Positions 2,943 through 62,527 of a DNA stretch of 64,000 bases are shown in pieces. Numbering within the stretch: position 1 is the first letter of the stretch; every line of letters starts with the position of its first letter. This DNA is from Tritonibacter litoralis (lineage in GTDB: Bacteria; Pseudomonadota; Alphaproteobacteria; Rhodobacterales; Rhodobacteraceae). The notes beneath the pieces were generated by a model. The model made no database searches and had not been told where the DNA came from. It saw nothing but the letters and a program-made list of their open reading frames with translations. The DNA lies in contig NZ_WIBF01000010.1 of NCBI RefSeq assembly GCF_009496005.1, forward strand, positions 62,001 to 126,000, in the 5' to 3' direction. A program made the translations under genes and the position numbers.

Positions 2943-4266
2943 TCACTCTCCCCTTTGCTTTGGGCATGAAGAACTCGCGGAAAATCGGATAGATATGCGA
3001 CGGGAAAGCCACCCGCTGCATTTCAAAATGCGCCGCCTGCCCTTGCACCTCTCGGTAGTTTTGCCACAGATCTTCGCCTGCGTCGGGGTTCAACAGCAGA
3101 TGATCGGCAGATTCCTCGACGATTTCGACATAGGCATAGAACTGGCAAACTGGTAACAGATGCTCAAGCAGCAGCGATTTGCAGCGCGTTGAGTCATTGC
3201 CAAAATTCTCCCCATCCGAGGCCTGCGCCCCATAGATGTTCCATTCATCTGGTGGGTAACGCTCGTCGATGATCTCTTTCATCTTTTCCAACGCCGTGGA
3301 CACAATGGTGCCGCCGGTTTCGCGGGCATAAAAGAACGTGTCCTCATCCACCTCCTGCGCGTGATGTGTATGTCGGACAAAGACGATCTCTGTGTGTTCA
3401 TAACAGCGTGTCAGGAACAGATGCAGCAGCAGGAAGAAGCGTTTGGCCAAATCCTTCTCCCGCTCCTGCATCGAGCCGGATACATCCATGAGACAGAAAA
3501 CCACCGCCCGCGAATTGCGGATTTTCTCCGGCACATAGGTGTCATAGCGCAGATCCAGCGGATCGATGTAACCCACCACTTTGCGCTTGCGGATCAGCCC
3601 GTCCAGCTTGCGCTTCAGTTCCGCCAGCACCTCTTCCTGGGCAGGGCTGCGCGCTTCGATCTCTTCCAACTCGGCAACTTGTTTCTCCAGCGCCTTCTGG
3701 GTCGATTTGGACGGGCGTTGCAATGCAATCCGCCGCCCAAGCGAATTGCGCATGGTGCGAACAAGGTTCAGATTGTTGGGTGTTCCCGCCGTTGTCAGAC
3801 CCGCACGGCGGGTGCCAATGGTTTCGGTCTCCACCGTTTGTTTTTCAACAAGATCCGGCAGTTCCAGCCCGTCAAACAGGATCTCAAGATATTCATCCCG
3901 TGTCAGGGTAAAGGAAAACTCATCCGAGCCATCCCCATCATCAGACCCTTGCTTGCCGCCCTCCCCGCCGCCTGCGGGGGGACGTTTGATCTGATCGCCA
4001 ACGACATAGTCTTTGTTGCCCGGCAACACATGCCGCCGGTGCCCCCCTTTGCCGTCGTGAAAGAACCGCGGTTCTTTCAGACCTTTTGAGGGGATCGTGA
4101 TCTTTTCGCCCGATGCTTGATCCGCCGACCCGTCCTGGATCGTCTTATCCCGCACTGAACGGTCGACACGCTCTTTGATATTCTCCCGTGCGCGGCGCAA
4201 GAACCTTTGGCGATTGCCAAGGCTCTTGCCCTTGGGATTGGCGCGCCTGTCAATGAATTGGTGCAT
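2932..4266 (-). CDS. yeaH: YeaH/YhbH family protein (DUF444), von Willebrand A-like
   Basis: A 444-residue member of the DUF444 family. The start matches the family's usual beginning (IDRRxNPKGKSLGNRQRFLRR) and has a GAGGG ribosome site. Residues about 90-118 form a Gly/Asp-rich low-complexity linker. A DVSGSM motif at about 261-266 is the metal-ion-dependent adhesion site of a von Willebrand A fold, so the protein may bind a partner through a metal ion. It is the middle gene of the operon: 15 bases after prkA and overlapping spoVR. The family works with the PrkA kinase in nutrient and stress signalling in enterics; a role here is extrapolated. Confidence 0.93.
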   Translation of the reverse strand: MHQFIDRRANPKGKSLGNRQRFLRRARENIKERVDRSVRDKTIQDGSADQASGEKITIPSKGLKEPRFFHDGKGGHRRHVLPGNKDYVVGDQIKRPPAGGGEGGKQGSDDGDGSDEFSFTLTRDEYLEILFDGLELPDLVEKQTVETETIGTRRAGLTTAGTPNNLNLVRTMRNSLGRRIALQRPSKSTQKALEKQVAELEEIEARSPAQEEVLAELKRKLDGLIRKRKVVGYIDPLDLRYDTYVPEKIRNSRAVVFCLMDVSGSMQEREKDLAKRFFLLLHLFLTRCYEHTEIVFVRHTHHAQEVDEDTFFYARETGGTIVSTALEKMKEIIDERYPPDEWNIYGAQASDGENFGNDSTRCKSLLLEHLLPVCQFYAYVEIVEESADHLLLNPDAGEDLWQNYREVQGQAAHFEMQRVAFPSHIYPIFREFFMPKAKGRVNAG

Positions 4267-6937: not shown

Positions 6938-9900
6938 ATGAGTACCATTGCATTTATTACCCGAGACCAGGCGGGAACCAAACAGCACGGCGAATTTGCC
7001 GAGGCGAACTCTGTTTTGGATGCGACCTCCGCCAAAGATATTTCCTTGAACCTGTCTACAGCAGACGTCCAAGGATACAGCAGGGTCGGAAATGACTTGC
7101 AGATTCTGACCATGGACGGTCAGATACTCGTTCTGGACAATTACTTTGCGACAGGGCTGACAGGGGAAAAGAACCTGTTCCTGAGCGACAATGGCGAATT
7201 TATCGAAGTTGTCATTGATGCCAGCCCCGAAGGCGCCTTGTACCCAACCTACGAGCCCCTCGACGTATCCGGCAAATGGAGCGCTTATGATGAGCTGGTG
7301 TTCCTTGAACTGGACCGTGTGGAGCCGGTGATTGCACCGCTTGTGGCAGCACCTGCATTGGGTGGGCTGGGGGCTGCTGCCGCGGCCGCTGGCATTGTTG
7401 GTGCCGGTGCCCTGGCCGCAGGTGGAGACGACGACGAAGCGGGCGACGGTGACGGAACCGGCGGCGGAGCAGGTGATGGCGGCGACGACACAGGCGACGA
7501 CGATGACACAGGCGATGTCGGAGACGACGGTGGCGACGGAGATGGCGATGACGACGGCGGTGACTCCTCGGATGATGGCGACTCAGGCTCAGTAACGCCC
7601 ACAGTCGACAATCCTGACGCCTCCTATGATGTTGCAGGCGACACGACCGACCCGGTCACGATTTCAGGAACCGGTGCGCCCGGCTCAACCGTGGATGTCA
7701 CAATTGGCACCGCCACGCAGACTGTAACCGTCAACGACGACGGCATCTGGAGCGCGCCGTTTGACCCAGCTGATCTGCCCGCAGACGGCAATTATGACGT
7801 CGAAGTTCACGTAGAAGACCCAGATGGTGAAACCTTTGACCTTGATGGTCCAACGTTAAACATTGACACCACGCCGCCGCCGATCGCTATCACCGAAGGC
7901 ACGCAATCGGTGGGCGAAATTGTCAACGCCAACGAACAGGCAGACGGTCCGGTGATCTCGGGCGAAGGCGAAGTTGGCGCTTCCATCTCTGTTGAGATTG
8001 ACGGCACCACACATACGACAACCGTCGGTGAAGATGGAACTTGGTCCGTCACTTTTTCCGAAACCGAAATAGCGACTGGCGAGTACACCACCACCGTCAC
8101 GGTGACCAGCGCGGACGCCTTTGGCAATACGACGGTTGTAACCGATGTTCTGGAAGTGGACACAATTGCGCCCGCCATTGGTGTGGATACGGTTGAAGGC
8201 GATGATTTGGTCAATGCCGCCGAAGCGGCGGATGGCGTAACCCTGTCTGGAACCGGCGAAGCGGGTGCAGCCATCTCGGTGGAATTCATGGGCGAGACCG
8301 CCACCACCACCGTTGGCGCAGACGGAACATGGGCGGTTGCCTATGACGCCGCCTTGATCGCCGGTGGTGAATATGATGCAACCGCGACGGTCACCAGCAC
8401 TGATGCGGCAGGCAACAGCTCCACAACCAGCCATACCGTAGAAATCGACACCGTCGCACCGACGGCAACCATCAATACGGTTGAAGGCGATGATGTCGTG
8501 AATGCCGCCGAAGCGGCAGATGGCGTAACCCTGTCCGGAACCGGCGAAGCGGGTGCAGCCATCTCGGTAGAATTCATGGGCGAGACCGCCACCACCACCG
8601 TTGGCGCAGACGGAACATGGGCGGTTGCCTATGACGCCGCCTTGATCGCCGGTGGTGAATATGATGCAACCGCGACGGTCACCAGCACTGATGCGGCAGG
8701 CAACAGCTCCACAACCAGCCATACCGTAGAAATTGACACCGTCGCACCCACGACAACCATCAATACGGTTGAAGGCGATGATTTCGTCAATGCCGCCGAA
8801 GCGGCGGATGGCGTAACCCTCTCTGGGACTGGTGAAGCTGGTGCGGCCATCTCAGTGGAATTCATGGGGGAAATTGCGACCACGACGGTTGGAGATGATG
8901 GCAGCTGGTCGGTTGCCTATGATGCCGCTGTTATTACGGCCGGCGAATACGACACGACCTTTACGGTGACCAGCACCGACGCCGCTGGCAACAGCTCAAC
9001 CAGCGATCATACGGTTACGATTGATACCGTCGCGCCGACCGCAACCATCGATACGGTTGAAACGGACGATGTGGTCAATGCTGCAGAAGCATCAGACGGC
9101 GTGACATTGTCCGGCTCTGGTGAAGCTGGATCTACTGTTGAGGTCACATTCCTTGGCTCCACCCGGACGACCACAGTTGCCGGTGATGGCAGCTGGTCGC
9201 TGGATTATGACGCAAGCGACGTTCCAGCGGGCGAGAGCAGCCAGACTGCGTCCGTCACGTTGACCGATGCCGCAGGCAACGTAGGCCCAACCGTTACCCA
9301 CACCGTTGAGGTCGACACATTGGTCGATCCCCTGACGTCGGACGCGCTGCAAACTGCGGACGATATTATCAACCAGTCCGAACGCGCCGCTGGCGTCACT
9401 CTCACAGGCACAGTCGAGCCGGGTTCAAGTGTGACTGTCACCATCAACTCGGTCACCCGGTCCGCCACCGTGGACGCAAGCGGCAATTGGACCGTGGACT
9501 TTGACGCGGCGGACCTGCCCGAAGGCACCTACAGCGAGACCGCGACAATCACCGCGACCGATGCTGCAGGGAACACCGCCAGCATTTCCGAGACCTTCGC
9601 TGTCGACACCTATGGCGCGTCTGAGTATCACGGCTTGGAAACAAACTCTGGTGATATCGAACAGCTGATTTTTGAAGACGAAATCACCGATATGGCCGTC
9701 AGCACAGTGGCCGACGACGGCACCGTAACCGCAATCAGCGGCGTCAGCCGGACAGACACTGCGACGGACCCGTTTGACCCCTCAATCGTGACGACCGAGA
9801 CCTCGTTCTTCCTTGCGGATCCAACCCAAGTGCCAGATGGCTCCCGGCTGGTCATCACCGGGACGGACACCTCAGGGAACACTGCCGACACGCTGTTGAT

Positions 9901-48129: not shown

Positions 48130-48438
48130 CGGTATCATGGGGTTCGCCTTTGAATGACGTGCGAACCCGGATTTCAAGTCAAAAGCAGAATTTTAGTGAA
48201 ACTGGGCTGCATTGCTCGATCGGTTGCAAAAAGCCGAGCGAGCTTGCGCCCAAAACGCTTGAAATCCTATAAGTTAATAAAGCTCAGACCAAAACCAGGC
48301 TAAGCGCCGAACCAACAAAGCAGCGACAACAGACCAGTTCCATTCTTTGAAAGGCACCCGTTTCAAGGAGTGCCACCACTCCGAAATTGGAACCGCCGGT
48401 TTTTGAAAACCTTGACGGCCGCATCGCAGTGACGGTAA

Positions 48439-48640
48439 GACGCCTTAGATGGTTCTCGAAGACCAAGCTTCGGAGAGATGAAATGGGAATACGGTGAGGT
48501 GTAGCCATCAGGCGCCGAATCCGTAACTGCCCCCGCAACTGTAAGTGGCGAGCGACCCCGATTAAACCACTGGGCCACCGATGACGGTGTGGCCTGGGAA
48601 GGTCTGGGAAAGCAATGATCCACAAGTCAGGAGACCTGCC
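48439..48640 (+). ncRNA. Cobalamin (B12) riboswitch
   Basis: The hallmark B12 element is clear: GGGAATACGGTGAG (48485-48498), then CCGAATCCGTAACTGCCCCCGCAACTGTAAG across the centre. GGGAAGG-like and GATCCACAAGTCAGGAGACCTGCC close it near 48640. Spacing between blocks is normal. It controls the downstream metal ABC importer, with expression presumably lowered when adenosylcobalamin is bound. The left edge is approximate. Confidence 0.95.
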
Positions 48641-48668
48641 ATCACGGGCGTTTTTAACGTCGTGATTT
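48641..48668 (+). terminator. Candidate expression-platform hairpin of the riboswitch
   Basis: ATCACG...CGTGAT (48641-48646, 48661-48666) with an inner CGTT...AACG pair forms a hairpin starting at the last base of the riboswitch. It is followed by TT. It could act as a terminator or as an alternative pairing partner for the B12 element. Confidence 0.4.
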
Positions 48669-48706
48669 CAACTGACCCAGGCGGGGTGTCCTGGTGGGAG
48701 CCATTT

Positions 48707-48826
48707 ATGTTCGACCTACGAACCGTTGATCTGTTTCGGCCTCTTACGTTGCCCCCGCTACCGCGGAGGCAAATATGCAGGTTTCAAAATCCCAAGTTCC
48801 GTCTGAGCCGAATCTCACGAAACTGA
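48707..48826 (+). CDS. Candidate 39-residue leader peptide
   Basis: A short frame (MFDLRTVDLFRPLTLPPLPRR...) with GGGAG seven bases before its ATG, lying between the riboswitch and the metal importer. It is Arg/Pro-rich and overlaps the start of the 48-residue frame in another phase. Ribosomes reading it would pass through the ribosome site of the next frame, so it could be a regulatory leader. Alternatively it is chance. Confidence 0.3.
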   Translation: MFDLRTVDLFRPLTLPPLPRRQICRFQNPKFRLSRISRN

Positions 48827-48921
48827 CCTTCTGCCTAACCAGTATGAGCACTGCCTCGCTGGTTGGAAGCGCTGTTGCAGCATCTGCCGTCTTGTGGCTG
48901 TGCATTGTTGTTGTGTTGTAA
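48775..48921 (+). CDS. 48-residue single-helix membrane peptide, first cistron of the B12-regulated importer
   Basis: A short frame (MQVSKSQVPSEPNLTKLTF...) with an ideal GGAGG ribosome site six bases before the ATG. The C-terminal half (STASLVGSAVAASAVLWLCIVVVL) is one transmembrane helix. Its TAA stop directly abuts the ATG of the ABC ATPase, which has no ribosome site of its own, so the ATPase is probably translated by coupling. It has no His-rich tail like the cobalt protein CbtB and I recognise no family. It may be an accessory subunit of the importer. Confidence 0.6.
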   Translation: MQVSKSQVPSEPNLTKLTFCLTSMSTASLVGSAVAASAVLWLCIVVVL

Positions 48922-49674
48922 ATGGCGGACTTGCTGAAAATCCGGAACCTTGCGCTTGGCTACCCCGGTCTGACCTTGTTTCGTGGTCTGTCAATGGACG
49001 TGACCCAGGGGACAAGTCTTGCCGTACTGGGCGCCAATGGGTCAGGGAAAAGCACATTTGTCAAAATGCTGCTGAACTTGATCGACCCGCTGGCGGGCAA
49101 ACTGAGCTGGCCAAACGGACGCCCTTCTGAGGTTGGATACCTTGCCCAGTTAACAGAGTTCGACCGGCGGTTTCCCTTGCGCGTGCGTGATCTTGTTGCC
49201 ATGGGAGCCTGGAAAGGCTTTGGCCTGCGCGGGCATCTGAGCGCTGAAACCCACGACAAAATAACATCCGCCCTGGAGGCAACCGGGGTATTGGAAATCG
49301 CGGACCGCTCGCTTCACACATTGTCCGGTGGACAATTGCAACGTGCTTTGTTCGCCCGTGTCATTATGCAAGACACACCGCTGATCCTGCTGGATGAACC
49401 CTTTGCCGCGGTGGACCAAAACACCGAAGCACATCTGTTGACGCTGATTGACCGATGGCGTGACGAAGGCCGCGCGGTCATCCTGGTCGTGCATGACTTG
49501 TCGTCTGTACTGGACCGCTGCGACCACGTTTTGCTGCTCGGCGGCGGCACGGCAAGCTTCGGCCCGGTGCGAGACATTCTGACGCCCGAGCGCCTTGTTT
49601 CACAAAAATATCTATCCGAAAGCCAAGCCGCCTGGATGTTTCCAGAGGCCAGCCGGGAGGCGGCGCATGATTGA
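48922..49674 (+). CDS. Metal ABC transporter ATPase (ZnuC/TroB/MntA family)
   Basis: A 250-residue ATPase. Walker A is GANGSGKS, the signature is LSGGQLQR, Walker B is LILLDEPFAAVD and the switch is VVHDLSSV. It lacks the long C-terminal extension of sugar-type ATPases, which fits the Zn/Mn importer class. Translation seems coupled to the preceding 48-residue peptide. Downstream it overlaps the permease by 8 bases. B12-riboswitch control suggests cobalt, or a metal need linked to B12 status, rather than ordinary zinc uptake. Confidence 0.9.
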   Translation: MADLLKIRNLALGYPGLTLFRGLSMDVTQGTSLAVLGANGSGKSTFVKMLLNLIDPLAGKLSWPNGRPSEVGYLAQLTEFDRRFPLRVRDLVAMGAWKGFGLRGHLSAETHDKITSALEATGVLEIADRSLHTLSGGQLQRALFARVIMQDTPLILLDEPFAAVDQNTEAHLLTLIDRWRDEGRAVILVVHDLSSVLDRCDHVLLLGGGTASFGPVRDILTPERLVSQKYLSESQAAWMFPEASREAAHD

Positions 49675-50569
49675 ACTTCTGATCGAAATGTGGAGCTTTG
49701 CTTTTATGCAACGCGCCATTGTTGCGACAACGGTCTTGTCGGCATCGGTTGCCCCGGTTGGCACCTTCCTTGTTCTGCGACGTCTTTCGCTGGCCGGTGA
49801 GGCGATGGCCCATGCGATTACACCGGGTGTGGTTATCGGCTTTGTTGTGGCCGGGCTCTCTGTGTTCTCATTGCTGATTGGCGGGGTGATAGCCGGAGGT
49901 GTCGCCGCCGTGCTCACTGCGCTTTTGGCTCGAAAAACCATCCTGCGCAGCGATGCAAGCCTTGCGTCGATCTATCTGATTGCACTGGCGGCCGGGATAT
50001 TCATCTTGTCCGCTGCAGGCTCTGCCGTGCCACTCAAAAGCTTTCTGTTTGGATCCATTCTTGGCATCGATGACGCTTCGATGATCCTGATCGGAGCGGT
50101 GGCAACTGTGACCCTGGTGGCCTTTGCTTTCCTGCTGCGCCCTTTGATCATCAGCACCTGCGATCCGGTGTTTTTCGAAGCCCAGACCAAGCGCCCGCTG
50201 CTTGTCGAACAAGCCTTTATGCTTTTGCTGGTGCTCAACCTGATCGCAGCGTTCAAGACCCTGGGCACGCTGATGGCCGTTGGGTTGATGATCTTGCCCG
50301 CGACCACCGCGCGGTATTGGTCAAGCACGATCACAGGGCAATTGGGGCTGACTTTTGTCTTTGCCCTATCCAGTTGCTGGGTTGGCTTGACGCTTTCCTA
50401 TTTCTTCCCGGAAACGCCGTCTGGGCCAGCCATTGTGCTGACGGCTGGCGGGTTTTTCTTGGTGTCGGTCCTTTTGGGACCCCATGGGTTTGGGGTGCGG
50501 CTGCGCAAAACCACGCCCCAATCGACTTCGTCTATTGTGCAAACTCCAACAGAAAAGAGTCCTCAATGA
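49667..50569 (+). CDS. Metal ABC transporter permease (ZnuB family)
   Basis: A 300-residue permease of the ABC-3 family with eight or more predicted helices. SLAGEAMAHAITPGVVIG and the AVGLMILPATTARYWS region are the conserved loops of ZnuB-type proteins. ATG 49667 has GGGAGG six bases upstream. The open frame continues upstream but only inside the ATPase gene. The stop overlaps the binding-protein start as ATGA. Confidence 0.92.
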   Translation: MIELLIEMWSFAFMQRAIVATTVLSASVAPVGTFLVLRRLSLAGEAMAHAITPGVVIGFVVAGLSVFSLLIGGVIAGGVAAVLTALLARKTILRSDASLASIYLIALAAGIFILSAAGSAVPLKSFLFGSILGIDDASMILIGAVATVTLVAFAFLLRPLIISTCDPVFFEAQTKRPLLVEQAFMLLLVLNLIAAFKTLGTLMAVGLMILPATTARYWSSTITGQLGLTFVFALSSCWVGLTLSYFFPETPSGPAIVLTAGGFFLVSVLLGPHGFGVRLRKTTPQSTSSIVQTPTEKSPQ

Positions 50570-51459
50570 GTTTTAACAAGAAAATCACCACAGGGTTGGC
50601 GTCTGCCGTCTTGGCGCTGGCGACTTTGCCGGCATTTGCTCATGACATGAAAGTGGTGGCCAGCTTCTCGATCTTGGGCGATATGGTCGAACAGGTGGTT
50701 GGCGAACATGCAGACGTCACCACAATTGTGGGGCCGGACGCGGATGCGCATGTTTATCAACCTTCTGTCGCGGACGCCAAAGCGGTTGCCGAAGCGGATG
50801 TGATTTTTGTCAACGGGCTGGGCTTTGAAACCTGGTCAGACACGCTTATCGCCGAATCCGGCAGCGACGGCGCAGTGTTTGTTGCGACCAAAGGCATCAC
50901 GCCGGTACTGGTCGAAGGCGAAGCAGATCCGCATGCGTGGAATGCACTGACCAATGGCGTAATTTATGTCCAAAACATTTCCGCGGCCATGTCCGAAGTC
51001 ATGCCGGATCACGCTGCTGACTTCCAAGCCAATGCGGATGCCTATATTGCACAGCTTACGGCTCTTGATGCGAAAACCAAAGCCAGCCTGTCACAATTGG
51101 ACGCTGATGCGCGTACCGTGGTCACCGCCCATGATGCCTTTGGGTATCTGGCCGATGCCTATGGGCTCAACTTCCTGGCGCCTGTCGGGATCGACACCGA
51201 AGCCGAACCCTCCGCAAAAGAGCTTGCTGCGTTGATCAAACAGCTGCGCGAAGAAAAAGTGGCAGGACTCTTTGTTGAGAACATCACCAGCCCTGTTCTG
51301 GTGCAACAAATTGCCGAAGAGACCGGTATCAAAATCGGGGGGCGTTTGTTCTCGGACGCGCTGTCCGAGCGGGGTGGCCCTGCGACCAGCTACTTGGCCA
51401 TGTTCCAGCACAACTTGGACACATTGCTGGCGGCCCTGACCAACAAAGGGTCCAGCTGA
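50566..51459 (+). CDS. Metal-binding periplasmic protein (ZnuA/TroA family)
   Basis: A 297-residue binding protein with a Sec signal peptide (ending LPAFAHD). The cluster A-I metal ligands appear as His62 (DAHVYQP), His123 (DPHAWN), His189 (TAHDAFGY) and Asp264 (LFSDALS). His at the third position is the zinc-type rather than manganese-type arrangement. The His-rich loop of true ZnuA is missing. Under B12 control it may be specialised for Co2+, whose coordination can resemble Zn2+. The substrate is inferred. Confidence 0.9.
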   Translation: MSFNKKITTGLASAVLALATLPAFAHDMKVVASFSILGDMVEQVVGEHADVTTIVGPDADAHVYQPSVADAKAVAEADVIFVNGLGFETWSDTLIAESGSDGAVFVATKGITPVLVEGEADPHAWNALTNGVIYVQNISAAMSEVMPDHAADFQANADAYIAQLTALDAKTKASLSQLDADARTVVTAHDAFGYLADAYGLNFLAPVGIDTEAEPSAKELAALIKQLREEKVAGLFVENITSPVLVQQIAEETGIKIGGRLFSDALSERGGPATSYLAMFQHNLDTLLAALTNKGSS

Positions 51460-61240: not shown

Positions 61241-62527
61241 TTACTCCGCGGCGGTTTTGTGTGTATTTGCAACGTCCTGCGCCGCACCGATCAGGATATC
61301 CAATCCGGCTTTCAGGGTTTCGTCAGGGGTGGTCAGCGGGGCCAGGATCTTGATGACTTCATCCTCCGGACCGGAGGTTTCGATGATCAGTCCTCGCTGA
61401 AAGGCGCGCGCGCATATGTCGCCAGCCAGCGCGCCGCTGCCAACGTCGACACCGCGCATCATGCTGCGCCCCTTGAGCTGCGCACAGGGAACCAAATCTG
61501 CGATGGTCTGTAGGCCGTCTTCGACCAGTTGTGCCCGGCGGGAAATGTCGAGTTGAAACTCATCGCTGGCCCAGAACTTCTCCAAGGCAGCGCGTGCCGT
61601 GACAAAAGCGTGGTTGTTGCCGCGAAAGGTGCCATTGTGTTCAGCCGGGCCCATCACGTCATACTCGGGTTTTACCAGGACCAGCCCCATTGGCAGGCCA
61701 AAGCCCGAGATGGATTTGGCCAAGGTGACGATGTCCGGAGAAATGCCCATGTCGTCGAATGAGAAGAACGTTCCTGTACGACCACAGCCCGCCTGCACGT
61801 CGTCGATAATCAGCAGCGCGCCAGCCTTTTTGGCTAGCTCTGCGATCCGCTGCAGCCAGGGGCGGCTTGCAACATTCAACCCGCCTTCGCCCTGTACGGT
61901 TTCAAGGATTATCGCAGCCGGTGCATCCAGACCGCTGGAGCGATCGTTGAGCATCGCTTCCAAGAAATCAGCGGTATCGCCGCAGCCGGCGAAATAACCA
62001 TCATATGGCATTCTGGTCACCCCATTCAGCGTCGTGCCCGCACCACCACGGTGGTAGCTGTTTCCCGTCGCCGCCAAGGCACCCTGGGTGACGCCGTGAA
62101 AGCCATTGGTGAAGGCGACGATATTGCTTCGGCCGGTAGCTTTGCGGGCGATTTTCATTGCGGCCTCGACGGCGTTTGCACCCGTCGGCCCGGTAAACAT
62201 GAGCTTGTGAGACATGCCACGCGGGGTCAGTATGTGCTCTTCAAACGCCGTGATAAATTCGGCTTTTGCATCGGTGTGCATGTCCAACCCGTGCGCAACA
62301 CCATCCGCCTGGATGTGTGCGATCAGCGCGTCTTTCAGGTCTGGGTCATTGTGGCCATAGTTCAAAGACGAACAGCCTGCGAGGAAATCGATGTAGCGTC
62401 TTCCATCACTGGATGTCATTTCCGAGCCTTGGGCAGAGGTGAAAACCGCGTCAAACCCCCGGCAATAGCTGCGCGCATCAGATTCACGGCGCGTGAATAT
62501 GGAAACTTCGGACGGGTTCGTCGACAT
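61241..62527 (-). CDS. ectB: Diaminobutyrate-2-oxoglutarate transaminase
   Basis: A 428-residue class III PLP aminotransferase that converts aspartate semialdehyde to L-2,4-diaminobutyrate. [15 protein letters not shown] binds the cofactor phosphate, [13 protein letters not shown] holds the PLP-contacting Asp and [13 protein letters not shown] the Schiff-base Lys. ATG 62527 gives the usual start; the frame extends 21 codons further without support. It is the middle gene of ectABC. Confidence 0.97.

Follow-up and report, generated by a model that had tools for sequence, protein, structure and literature searches.

A cobalamin riboswitch-led cluster A-I importer operon in Tritonibacter litoralis, a candidate cobalt importer of B12-making alphaproteobacteria

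The operon, its leader, and its products

In this study, we describe an operon of Tritonibacter litoralis in which a cobalamin (B12) riboswitch stands before the genes of an ATP-binding cassette (ABC) importer of the cluster A-I type, and we weigh which metal this importer is likely to carry. The operon lies on the forward strand of contig NZ_WIBF01000010.1, within a stretch of 64,000 nucleotides (positions 62,001 to 126,000) that was analyzed as a whole and is hereafter called the window; window coordinates are counted from its first letter. The features of the operon and its leader are as follows:

48433..48657, plus strand, cobalamin (B12) riboswitch aptamer (RF00174, full length 1-189, Rfam cmscan)
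48749..48772, plus strand, candidate expression-platform hairpin (predicted; it would mask the GGAGG of the small gene)
48775..48921, plus strand, gene of a 48-amino-acid protein, first in the operon (translation; homologues in relatives)
48922..49674, plus strand, ABC ATPase, AztA/ZnuC-like (ABC_tran, 82.5 bits)
49667..50569, plus strand, ABC-3 family permease, AztB/ZnuB-like (ABC-3, 161.5 bits)
50566..51459, plus strand, periplasmic metal-binding protein of the cluster A-I type (ZnuA PF01297, 280.3 bits)

The riboswitch matches the Rfam model RF00174 (Cobalamin) with 126.3 bits (E 2.4e-31), where the gathering score is 31.5, and it is the one cobalamin riboswitch that Rfam finds in the 64-kb window. 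The genes of the small protein, the ATPase, the permease, and the binding protein all lie on the plus strand and abut or overlap, so that their arrangement is that of a single operon. An earlier, sequence-only reading of this DNA had described a cobalamin riboswitch upstream of a complete ZnuABC-like gene set with no other gene type in between. The riboswitch is confirmed by Rfam, and the ATPase, permease, and binding protein by their Pfam families; the last part of that description is contradicted by the 48-codon open reading frame (ORF), which carries its own GGAGG and precedes the ATPase gene. Action of the riboswitch on some other gene, which the same reading had counted as a possible objection, was sought and not found.

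The 48-codon ORF (48775-48921) ends directly 5' of the ATPase start and has a Shine-Dalgarno sequence, GGAGG, at 48765-48769. It is very probably a genuine gene, since an equivalent short ORF is present in 49 of the 49 loci examined, the window included. Its product reads as a single-span membrane protein, for which scans of Pfam and NCBIfam gave no family match. The C-terminal core of this protein is conserved in 45 of the 49 loci, with Ser at position -24 in 45/45, Cys at -29 in 44/45, and Trp at -8 in 43/45, and four Geminicoccus-type loci hold a divergent form of it. We assume that the small protein serves as a subunit of the importer.

With a ZnuA-family protein that has a four-ligand site and with an ABC-3 permease, the operon belongs among the cluster A-I importers. 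The nearest curated NCBIfam models for the ATPase, permease, and binding protein are AztA, AztB, and AztC, and all three scores lie below the equivalog cut-offs (188.6 bits against 220, 209.2 against 280, and 271.4 against 350, respectively). The window proteins also score below the cut-offs of the NCBIfam models for ZnuABC and MntABC/SitABCD, those of MntC and EfaA included. Among solved structures, the one closest to the binding protein in sequence is 8svc (E 1.8e-73), itself the binding protein of a metal ABC transporter, and a Pfam scan of the binding protein at E<=1 returned ZnuA together with two weak unrelated families, and no BtuF-type family.

The metal ligands named in the sequence-only reading, His62, His123, His189, and Asp264, are indeed the residues at those positions, and they are aligned in 73, 72, 73, and 71, respectively, of 73 alignment rows, a total to which the window protein contributes three. 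That reading was equally right that the binding protein lacks a His-rich loop: in the stretch that ends at H123, this ligand being counted, the window protein has one histidine (H123 itself), whereas the separate ZnuA of the window genome has 33 and four AztC-like homologues have 5-22. Two Pseudomonas homologues, L056 and L058, have 1 and 2 histidines in the same stretch. By themselves, these two features do not point to cobalt, as both are found also in Pseudomonas homologues that have Zur-like sites; the missing loop was rejected as proof of cobalt on account of L056 and L058, which are without it as well.

Recurrence of the pairing and the absence of Zur control

The binding protein alone was used as the query in one genome per species, and 65 loci were recovered in a search in which the riboswitch played no part in the selection. 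Fifty of these loci have a permease at least 52% identical to that of the window and are referred to as target-type. In two of them (L016 and L044) the contig ends inside the operon, which leaves 48 with readable upstream DNA. A B12 box lies in the operon leader of 47 of these 48, and Rfam, which was run on 42 of the 47 (all except L030, L035, L041, L043, and L075), found RF00174 upstream and in the same orientation in 42/42. The exception is L050, in which Rfam found no cobalamin riboswitch. The pairing of riboswitch and importer is present also in Thiosymbion, a member of the Gammaproteobacteria, and in relatives of Geminicoccus.

Genomes that had been drawn without selection, 198 Rhodobacteraceae of different genera and 385 Alphaproteobacteria, gave a similar picture. 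A target-type permease, here defined by at least 56% identity with the next-best permease at 51%, was found in seven of them (G000, G072, G176, G194, G017, G560, and G543), and the riboswitch is present in six; at the G017 locus there is no riboswitch within 8.5 kb. The same pairing had been proposed by the sequence-only reading as something to look for in related genomes, and it recurs there both among the loci and among the draws. By contrast, no riboswitch was detected by Rfam within about 1.5 kb on each side of 14 more distant AztB-like loci, which indicates that the riboswitch is tied to a single branch of the family. Trees separate this riboswitch branch from a Pseudomonas-type branch, and the residues listed as distinguishing the proteins of the two branches do not include the metal ligands. 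Among plasmids, 12 records were found at E<=1e-40, every one of them below 60% identity.

Zur sites were scored with a matrix built from five published Paracoccus denitrificans sites (PMC5387054). A Zur promoter at the window operon, which would have refuted the sequence-only reading by its own account, was sought and rejected: the 646 bases before the small gene peak at 3.8 bits, compared with a background whose mean is 3.6 and whose 99th percentile is 11.7. The same matrix finds a Zur-like site of 19.8 bits elsewhere in the window genome, between its zur homologue and the gene of the separate ZnuA with a His-rich loop. Among the 47 riboswitch leaders, one reaches 16.8 bits and one 13.3, and the others do not exceed 11.7. 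The site of 16.8 bits is in L043, at about position 4116 between the B12 box and the small gene, and may represent either double control or chance. Pseudomonas-type loci reach 15.4-18.9 bits within their first 5 kb in 10 of 11 cases, and at L058 a folE2 gene stands directly 5' of the ATPase gene; FolE2 is described as a Zur-controlled substitute (PMC2770081). Of 40 AztB-like loci, 24 have a Zur score of at least 15 bits at some point of the stretch available, whereas 2 of 53 control pieces, each 3.3 kb long, do so.

Cobalt importers, B12 synthesis, and the choice of metal

If the operon imports cobalt, the system is expected in B12 makers and is expected to stand in for other cobalt importers. 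The target set consists of 39 genomes with the importer and a riboswitch confirmed by Rfam, 35 of them reached through the loci and the remainder being G000, G072, G176, and G194. From the 47 box-positive loci, L046 was dropped as a duplicate of G176 and 11 lay outside the survey; G222 was dropped because its CobH coordinates coincide with those of G176 and the two are one genome, and G017 was excluded because it has no riboswitch. The 38 controls were hand-picked from 193 genomes of the family without the target system, each at least 97% complete, before the results for CobH, CbtA, and CbiM were obtained.

CobH, the marker for B12 synthesis, is present in 39/39 target genomes and in 29/38 controls (p 0.001). 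CbtA is found in three of the 39 target genomes (G000, G217, and G230) compared with 10 of the 29 CobH-bearing controls, and CbiM in three (G198, G201, and G232) compared with 22 of the 29; all three CbiM matches in target genomes and 13 of the 22 in controls are weak, at 48-65 bits, yet above the cut-off. Either protein is therefore present in 6/39 target genomes against 27/29 CobH-bearing controls (Fisher p 6.5e-11). The counts are 8/39 against 27/29 (p 1e-9) when relatives of Sinorhizobium meliloti CbtJ of at least 43% identity are pooled with CbtA and CbiM, 3/39 against 19/29 (p 6e-7) when CbtA and strong CbiM matches only are considered, and 6/24 against 27/29 (p 3e-7) for CbtA and CbiM when each genus or lineage, grouped by organism name, is counted once. 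Mapped onto a CobH tree of the 68 genomes, the importer undergoes 17 changes. The best such tree yields about 16 independent pairs, of which about 11 go in the expected direction (a known importer only in the relative without the target system), 0-1 in the opposite direction, and about 4 are ties. Genome G230, from which L055 comes, has two CbtA copies besides the riboswitch importer.

Two further protein families are similarly frequent in targets and controls and were rejected as discriminators, namely HupE/UreJ (13/39 against 14/38 at E<1e-20; 25/39 against 22/38 at the Pfam cut-off) and NicO (25/39 against 20/38 at E<=1e-3). Genomes without CbtA, CbiM, CbtJ-like proteins (at least 43%), strong HupE, and NicO comprise seven of the 39 targets (G176, G207, G210, G223, G224, G231, and G234) and one of the 29 controls (G112), a contrast that is not significant alone (p 0.13); the seven become five if the weak HupE matches of G210 and G223, which are above the Pfam cut-off, are counted. 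G210, the genome of L026, is that of Roseovarius albus CECT 7450, a culturable strain.

In light of these findings, we propose that the operon probably encodes a high-affinity Co(II) importer of the ZnuA/AztC (cluster A-I) ABC family under cobalamin-riboswitch control. The computed basis for this proposal is the riboswitch, the gene content, the recurrence of the pairing, the co-occurrence with cobH, and the complementary distribution with CbtA and CbiM, from which cobalt would follow as the transported metal. The importer would take the place of other cobalt importers in the target genomes, yet not exclusively, as the window genome has CbtBA. The candidate cobalt importer of the sequence-only reading is supported by the same recurrence and distribution together with the lack of a Zur promoter, and its suggestion that such loci be sought in B12 makers without cbiM or cbtA fits the counts for CobH, CbtA, and CbiM given above.

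Cobalamin riboswitches of cobalt- or B12-supply operons are off-switches, and we infer the same direction here. When adenosylcobalamin is plentiful, the riboswitch would close the leader of the mRNA; in the window this might happen through masking of the ribosome-binding site that serves the small gene at the head of the operon. When adenosylcobalamin is scarce, the small membrane protein, the ATPase, the permease, and the binding protein would be made, and Co(II) would be caught in the periplasm by the site of three His and one Asp and pumped in for insertion into the corrin ring. The predicted hairpin at 48749-48772, which has nine pairs and one mismatch, appears in both the minimum free energy and the centroid structures of 48655-48800 and might hide the Shine-Dalgarno sequence of the small gene. 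Since this stretch folds no better than shuffled sequences (z 0.42), we offer the hairpin as an expression platform by way of suggestion. The Shine-Dalgarno sequence is mostly paired in 20/48 leaders and no site was recognized in 16/48, counts that were made without a control run, and comparable hairpins are seen in some near relatives; it follows that the expression platform either varies or has been misjudged.

Several observations weigh against cobalt. The window genome carries riboswitch-linked CbtBA, so that it would have two B12-controlled cobalt importers and the new system is not its sole cobalt candidate; it is possible that the two divide high- and low-affinity uptake between them. 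Two other target genomes also carry CbtA, three carry CbiM, and four have a CbtJ relative of at least 49% identity. The H,H,H,D ligand set is identical in Zur-linked relatives, and sites of this type are known for zinc. The ligand set is therefore silent on which metal is bound, and it was rejected as a pointer to cobalt. The locus L050, with a binding protein 66% and a permease 79% identical to those of the window and with the same small gene, adjoins a Zur homologue, hisI, and two COG0523 genes, which means that the scaffold may carry zinc, and CobH was not found in the genome of L050, a gammaproteobacterium. With regard to the genome comparison, the controls were hand-picked, absences are less sure in the 35 locus-derived genomes, whose completeness is not given, and CobH is one marker gene and not the whole pathway, other genes of which (cobW and cobN) were read in the window genome only. 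The CobH host tree is weakly supported, and only two of its pairs stand on starred branches.

The other target-type copy without a riboswitch, that of G017, is in a genome with CobH and a CbiM match of 52 bits; a COG0523 gene adjoins it, and no Zur-like site above 10 bits was found in 8.5 kb. The riboswitch-less copies of L050 and G017 both agree with a rule by which such target-type copies are found where they are not required for cobalt, but two cases prove little.

It could be argued that the operon is a zinc importer resembling AztABC, whose B12 control meets a need for zinc that arises when B12 is short, as with MetE, or which simply supplies zinc. In favor of this, AztA, AztB, and AztC are the closest named families, Zur linkage is frequent among the more distant systems, L050 is part of a Zur cluster, and the ligand set is of the zinc type. 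MetE is a zinc enzyme used when B12 is short. Its N-terminal domain, however, is above the cut-off in 0/39 targets and 1/38 controls, and zinc for MetE was rejected for the reason that no target genome has it above the cut-off. Moreover, the window operon shows no Zur site, a Zur-linked ZnuA is encoded elsewhere in the window genome, and zinc leaves the complementarity with CbtA and CbiM unexplained. For these reasons, we consider zinc unlikely.

An importer of broad Co/Zn (or Co/Ni) specificity, with a cobalt role under B12 control in most hosts and a use under Zur elsewhere, finds some support in the presence of the same scaffold, ligands, and small gene both under the B12 riboswitch and in the Zur cluster of L050, and in trees that nest L050 inside the riboswitch group. 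This nesting is not firm, as a single clade of the riboswitch rows without L050 was not rejected by the approximately unbiased test (p 0.185), and the Zur-like site of L050, at 22 bits, lies before hisI with none directly before the importer. Broad specificity would also be risky for a B12-controlled system, and we regard it as very improbable. There is just as little to recommend a manganese importer feeding the Mn-dependent class Ib ribonucleotide reductase NrdEF, which would stand in for the B12-dependent enzyme during B12 shortage, for although the nrdIEF genes of the window genome lie behind another B12 riboswitch and a riboswitch-led nrd operon (read by eye) is divergent from the importer in L023 and L031, with NrdI in both genomes, NrdI is too rare to provide a general cause (8/39 targets against 3/38 controls, p 0.19), the third ligand is His in 73/73 rows, unlike the Glu of typical manganese proteins, and the complementarity with cobalt importers is left unexplained.

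Returning to cobalt, a wider proposition can be framed, namely that many B12-making alphaproteobacteria, together with the symbiont Thiosymbion, import their cobalt mainly, and in certain hosts solely, through a zinc-type cluster A-I importer that has a previously undescribed small membrane subunit, exchanged Zur for a B12 riboswitch, and is without the His-rich zinc loop, while the same scaffold stands in the Zur cluster of a cobH-less gammaproteobacterium. We judge the chances that this holds as a whole to be evenly balanced.

The window genome has six B12 riboswitches, and downstream of them lie nrdIEF, the importer operon, a 144-codon ORF, gbcAB-like genes, cbtBA, and a cobW/cobN cluster. 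In L007 (371-4503), the riboswitch precedes nrdI, nrdE, and nrdF, the class Ib ribonucleotide reductase genes, with an NrdH-like ORF recognized by eye. Outside the window, the riboswitch at G000:C2:154947-155147 precedes the gbc-like genes (L009, 12517-14833, minus strand), whose best NCBIfam models are GbcA, a glycine betaine monooxygenase (498.8 bits, cut-off 670), and GbcB (357.2 bits, cut-off 500); a possible rationale for this riboswitch is that the genes provide an oxygen-dependent substitute for a corrinoid-dependent demethylase. The 144-codon ORF (L008, 2058-2492, minus strand) has no Pfam match and follows the riboswitch at G000:C52:2603-2844. In other genomes, the riboswitch-led nrd operons that diverge from the riboswitch of the importer occupy 724-3752 in L023 and 651-3686 in L031 (minus strand), and in L024 the corresponding place is taken by a weaker riboswitch (81 bits), near which no nrd gene is visible. 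L038, L042, and L055 have another full B12 riboswitch 3' of the importer operon (about 6990-7203, plus strand), before short ORFs; in L038 and L055 it is followed further by a protein of 973 amino acids, which may resemble an Mrp-type antiporter subunit.

Relation to known systems

Seawater contains little cobalt, and many algae are supplied with B12 by roseobacters and their relatives. B12 control of cobalt import is already known, and CbtJKL is one case of it in an ABC importer that has a binding protein (PMC7689651); for the binding proteins of cluster A-I, the metals carried are given as zinc, manganese, or iron (PMC7463823, PMC5387054). A survey of metal transport in roseobacters and SAR11 reports TroA-family proteins and, for cobalt, cbiMQ, cbtAB, and corA, and the word riboswitch is not used in its main text (PMC4771312). 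According to a comparative survey of nickel and cobalt use, 13 bacteria that make B12 have neither a known nor a candidate cobalt importer (PMC2667541), and a riboswitch-regulon study of 2013 that included Rhodobacterales distinguishes 12 cobalt-transporter groups (PMC3766115). Our literature search gave no recognizable description of a riboswitch paired with a cluster A-I importer, though older B12-regulon papers and supplements may hold an earlier prediction. If the cobalt reading is correct, the cluster A-I importers would include a cobalt branch, such operons would be misnamed wherever they are annotated as zinc or manganese transporters, and the contrast of Zur and riboswitch control provides a natural system for the evolution of metal choice on one scaffold.

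The zinc importer AztABC(D) of P. denitrificans is like the window system in that its proteins give the best NCBIfam models and in having a cluster A-I binding protein and an ABC-3 permease. It differs in that the window proteins remain below all three cut-offs, there is neither a His-rich loop nor a Zur site, and the window operon adds the small membrane gene and the B12 riboswitch. Nor is there an aztD in the operon, since the first ORF of gene size after the binding-protein gene has the opposite orientation. ZnuABC and MntABC/SitABCD are of the same superfamily as the window importer. In contrast to ZnuABC, the window operon is without a Zur site and without a His-rich loop. Manganese importers have a His-His-Glu-Asp site, whereas the third ligand of the window protein is His, giving the set H-H-H-D. 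The CbtJKL system of S. meliloti, whose B12 riboswitch we observed on pSymB, resembles our proposal in that it is an ABC importer with a binding protein, carries cobalt, and has a B12 riboswitch; its binding protein, however, is BtuF-like (PMC7689651), that of the window is of the ZnuA family, and CbtJ relatives of at least 49% identity occur in only 4/39 target genomes. CbtAB and CbiMNQO also carry out B12-linked cobalt import, but they belong to other protein families, and their distribution is complementary to that of the new system.

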